DNA from: Thermoproteota archaeon
GTDB lineage: Archaea; Korarchaeota; Korarchaeia; Korarchaeales; Korarchaeaceae
Reading direction: 5' to 3'
DNA: 64,000 nucleotides
Assembly (NCBI GenBank): GCA_027491435.1
Contig: JAOZFG010000004.1
Location: 62,001 to 126,000 of the forward strand
The position numbers and the translations under genes were made by a program. The stretch's first letter is position 1, and every line of letters starts with the position of its first letter. Below, piece by piece: positions 4,046-6,238 of the stretch. The notes under the pieces were generated by a model that saw only the letters and a list, made by a program, of their open reading frames with translations, was not told the DNA's origin and did not search any database.

Positions 4046-4546
4046 CTATACCAAGGACCTCTCCACGGCCCACCTGAGCATCCTAAGGAAGTCGTTAAGT
4101 TCCTTCGACTTCAGGCCCTCGATTTCTAAGTATTCTAAGGTACCATCATCTTTAACCTTTAATTCGTACCTAGCGTTCGAAGACTCTTCGAATTCCTTCA
4201 TCTTCTTCAGCAGGAATGACTTGATTGGTTTGGACTCAGCGTCCACTAAGAGGCCCTCAGCAGGGGTGAACCTGAGGTAACCTTTAGCCCTATCTACCTC
4301 AACGATTCCGAGCGAATTCCCTCCCTTGCTGGTCAATTGAACCCTCTCCAGTTTTTTAGGCCCTTTTTCCACCTTTTTTCTCTCCAATTTATCCGCGGTA
4401 GTTAAGGTCTGCTCCAAGAGGGTCTCCTCTAGGGCCTCCAACATCTGTCTCAATCTGATAAGCTCATTCTCTAGCTTATTTATCCTCTTCTTGAGCAGTT
4501 CTCTAAGTTCTAGAAGCCTCTTTATCCTCTCATCATCCTGGGACAA
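4046..4546 (-). CDS. Conserved coiled-coil protein of unknown function
   Basis: I do not recognise this 166-residue protein. Residues 5-50 form a strongly predicted coiled coil with leucine heptads, followed by a lysine-rich linker (about 53-65). Residues 70-166 look like a compact alpha/beta domain with RFTPAEGLLVD and LEIEGLKSKELNDFLRML segments. The start overlaps the end of lysS by 14 nt on the same strand, so it is translated as the second gene of a lysS operon. The context hints at a translation- or nucleic-acid-linked role, but no motif proves it. Confidence 0.7.
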   Translation of the reverse strand: MSQDDERIKRLLELRELLKKRINKLENELIRLRQMLEALEETLLEQTLTTADKLERKKVEKGPKKLERVQLTSKGGNSLGIVEVDRAKGYLRFTPAEGLLVDAESKPIKSFLLKKMKEFEESSNARYELKVKDDGTLEYLEIEGLKSKELNDFLRMLRWAVERSLV

Positions 4547-6140
4547 TTTTACCTTCCTCCACGAGTTCCCTAAACATCTTCCTGAACCTCGACGGGCCGA
4601 CCCTCTGTATAAGGTTGCCCAGCCTCGGCCCGCCGTCCTGTCCCAGTATGGCCCTGTATATCGACCTGAAGAACTCTTTAGACTTTATCCCCTTCTCCTT
4701 TATCACTTGAAAGGCCAAGTTCTGTATGTCCTCTGCGTTCATGTCGTCTGTTATTCTGTCTAGGAATTCCTCTATGGCTGCGAGTACTTGCTGAGGTATG
4801 ACGACCCTTCCTTCCTCTTCTGAGAAGGAATCCACGTAATTCTTAGCGTACTCCACGTACTTAATGAACCATTCATCATCTAGAAGCCGTTCCAATGGTA
4901 GGTCGTAATATCTGGATATGATATCTCCAACGAACTTAATGAGTTCCTCCCTAGACAGGTCCCTGGGCGCCATCCTAGCTACCTTGAGCACCGCGGAGTA
5001 CTCGTAGGGTGGCGGAGGGGGCACCCCTTCAAGTAAAAACGTGTACTCTACCAGTCTTTTCAGAGATATTCTATCTCTTTCACTCTTTATTTTGTCAAGA
5101 TTATGATACAATTTAAGGTTTCTCTCAAACTCATTTATGTATTGAGGCGTATTCTGGAGGGAAATGTTTCTGGTGCCGTGGTACCTCTTGAACATGAGCA
5201 TCCTCAAGGTCTCAGGGGGGGAGTACTTCATCCACATCTGCGGGGTTATCACGTTACCCTTAGACTTGCTTATCTTCCCTCCAGTGGCGTCTAGAAACAT
5301 CTCGTACATAACTGTCATAGGGGGCTCATAAGAGAGAACCTCCTTAGCTATCCTGGCGTTTACTCTGAACGAATCAGTTATGTCCTTTCCGTGAGGCTCA
5401 AATACTATGCCTAAAGCAGCCCACCTGGCGGCGAATTCCCCTTTCCAGGAGAGTTTACCTTCGCCCCTCACGTAAGAGGCCTCTCCAACGTGACCACAGC
5501 CCTTAACACCCTTAAATTCCTGGTCACAGGCGTAGATAACCTTCTTCTCCTCTGGTATCACTTTGATGACCCTAGTAGTGTATATTCTGCCGCACTTCTC
5601 GCACCTAGGCCAGTAGTAGACCCACCCCTCCGGCTTACTGGATCCCACCTCTTCCCTCACTATTTTATCCACTTTATGGCTGTTCTCGATTAGCTTAGCA
5701 ACCTGTTCATCTAACAAACCCGAATTATAGGCTTCAGTCCCGGATATGAAGGTGAATTCGATGCCCAATTTCTCCAAAGCGTCTATAAGCATGCTACTCA
5801 TGTGTTCTCCGTAACTGGAGTGGCACCCCCATGGGTCGGGTATCTCGCTCACTGGCATGCCTAAATACTTCCTGTAATCCTCGGGAACTCCTGCGGGGAC
5901 CTTTCTCAACCCATCCCTGTCATCGCTATAAGCAATGAGTTCGCTCTTGAGGCCTCTAGCCTCTATCCCCAACTTTACCCCGTAGGCCCTCAAGGAGTCG
6001 CCTACTGAACCTATGTGTGGAAAGCCGCTAGCTCCTATCCCAGATTCCACCCTGAGCACGGTAAAATTTCTGCCCAACTTCTCCTCTCGCTCTATAATTT
6101 CTCTGGCTATCTTATCTATCCAGAACTCCGCCTTCCCTAT
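4533..6140 (-). CDS. lysK: Lysyl-tRNA synthetase, class I (apparent AUA start)
   Basis: Charges tRNA-Lys using the archaeal class I fold unrelated to bacterial LysS. It has the HIGH-type PHIGS motif, a KISKS loop (KISKSKGN) and a Cys4 zinc cluster (CEKC, then two single Cys). The first conventional start is a TTG at 6077, but the frame stays open upstream and encodes a conserved-looking N-terminus (FWIDKIAREI, compare HWAD in methanogen enzymes). Between the in-frame TAG at 6153-6155 and 6077 there is no ATG, GTG or TTG. An ATA at 6138-6140 lies 4 nt after a GGTGG Shine-Dalgarno (6145-6149), so I place the start there. A frameshift or sequencing error is the alternative. Confidence 0.9.
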   Translation of the reverse strand: MGKAEFWIDKIAREIIEREEKLGRNFTVLRVESGIGASGFPHIGSVGDSLRAYGVKLGIEARGLKSELIAYSDDRDGLRKVPAGVPEDYRKYLGMPVSEIPDPWGCHSSYGEHMSSMLIDALEKLGIEFTFISGTEAYNSGLLDEQVAKLIENSHKVDKIVREEVGSSKPEGWVYYWPRCEKCGRIYTTRVIKVIPEEKKVIYACDQEFKGVKGCGHVGEASYVRGEGKLSWKGEFAARWAALGIVFEPHGKDITDSFRVNARIAKEVLSYEPPMTVMYEMFLDATGGKISKSKGNVITPQMWMKYSPPETLRMLMFKRYHGTRNISLQNTPQYINEFERNLKLYHNLDKIKSERDRISLKRLVEYTFLLEGVPPPPPYEYSAVLKVARMAPRDLSREELIKFVGDIISRYYDLPLERLLDDEWFIKYVEYAKNYVDSFSEEEGRVVIPQQVLAAIEEFLDRITDDMNAEDIQNLAFQVIKEKGIKSKEFFRSIYRAILGQDGGPRLGNLIQRVGPSRFRKMFRELVEEGKIVPG

Positions 6141-6144
6141 GTTC

Positions 6145-6149
6145 CCACC
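6145..6149 (-). promoter_or_regulatory. Shine-Dalgarno GGTGG of lysS
   Basis: On the minus strand GGTGG lies 4 nt before the ATA at 6140-6138, a spacing like that of other starts here (GGTGAT or GGTGG with 4-6 nt). It is what decides the proposed non-standard start codon. Confidence 0.5.
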
Positions 6150-6180
6150 GGGCTAACCACGTGCAAGGAGGAATAAGAAG

Positions 6181-6238
6181 TTTTTGTTGAGGAACCGCTT
6201 ACCCTCAACAAAAATTTTAGAGGGGGCTTTTCCCCCTC
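6181..6238 (-). terminator. Double hairpin terminator downstream of alba
   Basis: Just after the alba stop (minus strand) a 7-bp GC hairpin, arms 6220-6226 and 6232-6238, is followed by an AT-rich run. It is then followed by a second 12-bp perfect inverted repeat, TTTTTGTTGAGG (6181-6192) with its complement at 6203-6214 around a 10-nt loop. Together they look like a strong terminator separating alba from lysS. The second repeat ends about 40 nt from the lysS start, so it could also bear on the lysS promoter. Confidence 0.6.

Follow-up and report, generated by a model that had tools for sequence, protein, structure and literature searches.

The gene for a class I lysyl-tRNA synthetase (lysS) raises the question of which codon opens its reading frame. 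It lies on the minus strand of the window, the 64,000-nucleotide stretch of korarchaeal DNA analyzed here, and spans 4533..6140 when its 535 codons are counted from an AUA. The product matches PF01921 at E 1e-106 and 1IRX, a solved class I LysRS structure, at E 2e-57, and it passed the curated family model TIGR00467 (lysS_arch) with 276.8 bits against a cut-off of 147.55. Upstream, the frame is closed by an in-frame TAG (6153..6155, minus strand), while the first ordinary start within it is a TTG (6075..6077, minus strand). Between the two, the minus strand reads TAG (6155-6153) CCC GGT GGG AAC ATA (6140-6138) GGG AAG GCG GAG TTC TGG ATA GAT AAG and continues ATA GCC AGA GAA ATT ATA GAG CGA GAG GAG AAG to the TTG (6077-6075), with no ATG, GTG, or TTG in frame. 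The initial annotation had reported this absence together with the coordinates, the encoded peptide, and a GGTGG ahead of the ATA, all of which the sequence bore out.

Judging from its substitution pattern, the stretch 5' of the TTG is coding and under purifying selection. When the 16 codons of FWIDKIAREIIEREEK were compared with 12 genus members, the reading frame showed 52 synonymous against 63 non-synonymous codon changes; the two alternative frames gave 18/105 and 18/110. The differences at codon positions 1, 2, and 3 were distributed 52:23:94, a third-position bias. The proposal that this extension corresponds to the conserved N terminus of class I LysRS held up as well: its FWIDKIA pairs with WADYIA of 1IRX, placing tryptophan 7 on tryptophan 4 of the structure, and removal of the extension lowered the family score from 312 to 304 bits. 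The W-x-D N-terminal segment is included only if translation starts upstream of 6077. Translation from the TTG, yielding a protein without its first helix, would agree with TTG being the second commonest Shine-Dalgarno–linked start in the group. It is nevertheless very improbable, as this codon sits 16 codons inside a segment that is conserved as protein across the genus and matches the N terminus of 1IRX, and as a conserved promoter lies about 95 nt upstream of it. Thus, we rejected TTG 6077 as the start.

Comparison with the relatives pointed instead to the ATA at 6138..6140 (minus strand). All 12 of the genus relatives carry an ATG 7 to 8 codons before the FW[I/L]D motif; here an ATA stands 5 codons before it. 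In the nucleotide alignment with G008, ACATAGG of the window falls on ACATGGG, that is, ATA on ATG. A separately listed LysRS fragment in G008 proved to be part of the split gene of G008 itself, which has an ATG. The proposed start is preceded by a Shine-Dalgarno–like core, GGTG (6146..6149, minus strand), located 5 nt before the ATA, which is the modal spacing for ATG genes of the group. In those genes the spacing forms a sharp peak, on which both lysS and the RadA gene of the window genome lie. RadA also shares the layout of lysS, with GGTGGGA-N-C before its ATA. The lysS core comprises only 4 bases, and the general Shine-Dalgarno consensus served as the reference. The ATA had been described as the only candidate, which is too strict, since further ATA and ATT codons from 6119 on are near-cognate too; it is, however, the sole one with GGTG at the usual spacing and at the site of the relatives' ATG. 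Together, alignment and spacing support AUA 6138 as the best candidate for the lysS start codon, in agreement with the initial annotation.

The region further upstream contains a promoter-like AAACTTCTTATT (6172..6183, minus strand) that is conserved upstream of lysS in most genus members. The distance from the promoter-like TTCTTATT to the start is 27 to 29 nt in most relatives and 31 nt to the ATA here, which would put the 5' end of the mRNA a short way upstream of the ATA. We also observed a 7-codon mini-ORF starting with GTG (window 6137-6160, minus strand), not seen in the relatives, whose TAG overlaps the proposed start as ATAG. Ribosomes terminating on this mini-ORF (GTG GTT AGC CCG GTG GGA ACA TAG, 6160-6137) might restart at the ATA, and in Rpp29, too, the AUA closely follows the stop codon of the preceding gene. 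Yet relatives lack such a mini-ORF before lysS, as judged by eye, and from the position of the promoter the leader would probably be too short to contain it. We therefore regard reinitiation as very unlikely, and it would still be initiation at AUA.

The AUA start of lysS is confined to one species, its relatives having ATG, and the single ATA base could be an error or a population variant. The initial annotation had treated it as an unusual case in one gene, a view that had to be widened, since AUA, AUC, AUU, and CUG starts recur in other genes, several of them genus-wide. These emerged from a screen for conserved ORFs in which no ATG, GTG, or TTG precedes the conserved start; it covered 384 kb of the 1.64-Mb window genome (about a quarter) and 390 kb from each of G001 and G013. 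In the window genome, this partial screen yielded three more AUA starts, in an M20 peptidase (TGA ATA GAT ATA), the RNase P protein Rpp29 (TAA GCT ATA), and RadA (TAA CCG GAA GGT GGG AGC ATA CCC; found via orthologs), and a CUG start in TFB (TAA CTG). In all four genes, the open frame upstream lacks any standard start. Including LysRS, near-cognate starts thus account for 5 of 273 conserved ORFs of at least 70 codons, a rough figure that misses genes with a chance upstream start and is based on an ORF list including some antisense artifacts.

Several of these starts are conserved at the same position across the genus. In RadA, 15 readable members use ATA (seven), ATC (six), or ATT (two) at one position, with AGGTGA or a similar sequence just upstream, whose TGA in most members is itself an in-frame stop; in the sister genus G016, the site is ATG. 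G005 has a TTG two codons upstream as a possible alternative start. Across the genus, RadA start codons end in A, C, or T but never in G, as if AUG were avoided. In Rpp29, ATA is the start in every one of 15 readable members; two also have a GTG three codons further on. In a gene resembling GGPP synthase, AGGTGA with its in-frame TGA is followed by ATA in 10 members, and the window genome has GTG or ATG. All 15 readable members carry CTG in TFB; in the window genome, G010, and G011, an in-frame stop leaves no other reading, and in several other members a GTG inside the Shine-Dalgarno sequence is an alternative start. In contrast to these four genes, LysRS and M20 show no such conservation, their relatives having ATG. 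Cases limited to one or two species comprise Sir2 with ATA and YfcE and HisRS with CTG (G013), PorG with CTG (G001), and a KH-CPSF nuclease starting with ACG (G001 and G013).

This recurrence, and the conservation across the genus, make a sequencing error or a pseudogene very unlikely. An assembly error at lysS itself, with the true codon being ATG or a missing base that would bring the GTG at 6147-6145 into frame, gains some credit from the metagenome-type assembly in 43 contigs and from the restriction of the LysRS AUA to the window genome. We consider it quite unlikely, as AUA recurs in M20, Rpp29, and RadA of that genome, Rpp29 and RadA look alike in independently assembled relatives, and the LysRS frame is otherwise clean over its 535 codons.

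A bulk count behind Shine-Dalgarno sequences found ATA 37 times in frame versus 17 expected and CTG 27 times versus 10.5. The standard starts were prominent in this count and the near-cognates only weakly enriched, with many chance hits; thus, the case rests on gene-by-gene conservation. Among 203 ORFs of the sister genus G018, one or two may start with CUG and none clearly starts with AUA, as compared to about 10 AUA cases among the 1,037 ORFs taken from the three genus genomes; this contrast alone is not statistically strong. The control pair G037/G059 was uninformative, its proteins being about 92% identical and antisense and flanking frames being conserved too.

Taken as a whole, the data make it very probable that lysS is translated from AUA 6138, positioned by GGTG and read by a CAU initiator tRNA, as one instance of a genus-wide habit. 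The small ribosomal subunit would be positioned by the nearby Shine-Dalgarno–like GGTG, and the ordinary CAU initiator tRNA would be accepted at AUA with a third-position mismatch, the first residue presumably being methionine. Across the genus, AUA, AUC, AUU, and CUG would serve as starts where the Shine-Dalgarno sequence is well placed, and we infer that such placement lets the normal CAU tRNA initiate at codons with one mismatch. In this scheme, the dependence on the Shine-Dalgarno sequence, the methionine at the first position, and an underlying loosening of start-codon proofreading are inferred. The sequence comparisons point to an inherited trait, Shine-Dalgarno–driven initiation at near-cognate codons.

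An aberrant initiator tRNA was considered as a cause, but that of the relatives is normal, with a CAU anticodon; in at least 10 genus members it is canonical, with a conserved anticodon arm. We did not find an initiator tRNA-Met in the whole of the window's own assembly (G000), which is probably an assembly gap, or the gene may carry an intron or be split. In this assembly, the elongator tRNA-Met and tRNA-Tyr genes carry introns (G000:C5:94611-94717 and G000:C16:38226-38343), and ARAGORN misreads the intron-bearing elongator tRNA-Met as tRNA-Ser. Wrong starts are rejected by the factor aIF1. Its absence as a cause was ruled out, since aIF1 is present. In the genus and in G016, G018, and G020, the factor has lost its zinc-knuckle cysteines and one residue of basic loop 1, apparently the aromatic counterpart of P. 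abyssi Y32. In P. abyssi, this tyrosine stabilizes the 30S:mRNA state, and the knuckle is found in about 64% of archaeal aIF1 (PMC6237735); its absence alone is thus not uncommon. Neither change is limited to AUA users, and because G018 has both without a clear AUA start in its 203 ORFs, they are at most permissive.

AUA starts have hardly been reported in cellular genomes, to our knowledge. In mitochondria, where AUA also serves as a start, it means methionine via a modified tRNA; in contrast, AUA is common here internally at conserved Ile/Leu/Val positions, and no change of the code is indicated. Bacterial infC, which encodes translation factor IF3, has an AUU start and is autoregulated by its own product. 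The present cases share with infC a near-cognate AUH start that is conserved between species in an essential gene, and differ in involving several unrelated genes of one archaeal genus, AUA and CUG in addition, and no known regulator. Standard archaeal initiation shares the Shine-Dalgarno sequence at fixed spacing, aIF1, and the normal CAU initiator tRNA of the relatives; however, the start codons named in a review are AUG, GUG, and UUG alone (PMC7531240), unlike the AUA, AUC, AUU, and CUG starts proposed here. A reconstruction of start switches from 61,358 ancestral AUG starts lists two CUG, one AUU, and no AUA (PMC5622118). Our text search of the open-licence literature returned no report of AUA starts in archaea.

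The start-codon rule thus looks looser in this genus, where lysS, plus RadA and other basic genes genus-wide, appear from their sequences to use AUA or a similar codon as their start. We consider it reasonably probable that AUA, AUC, AUU, CUG, and perhaps ACG are routine in about 2% of genes, including aminoacyl-tRNA synthetases, an RNase P subunit, TFB, and RadA, given a strong and well-placed Shine-Dalgarno sequence, and that selection, e.g., for low or regulated expression, keeps AUH in RadA. As far as we know, common gene finders disallow AUA starts, and essential genes of the group would therefore carry wrong N termini in databases. A natural experiment on how far start selection depends on the Shine-Dalgarno sequence and how far on the codon is offered by RadA, whose start behind a Shine-Dalgarno sequence varies among AUA, AUC, and AUU at a single position across 15 species. 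A separate observation concerns a Tat-signal solute-binding protein located before hisS (in G001:C4, and in G013:C2 at about 304034), whose start is absent from its frame in both species. In each of them, the sequence reads ATG GGG GAT TTA G|TTC ACC TCT AGG AGA and would need a +1 shift.
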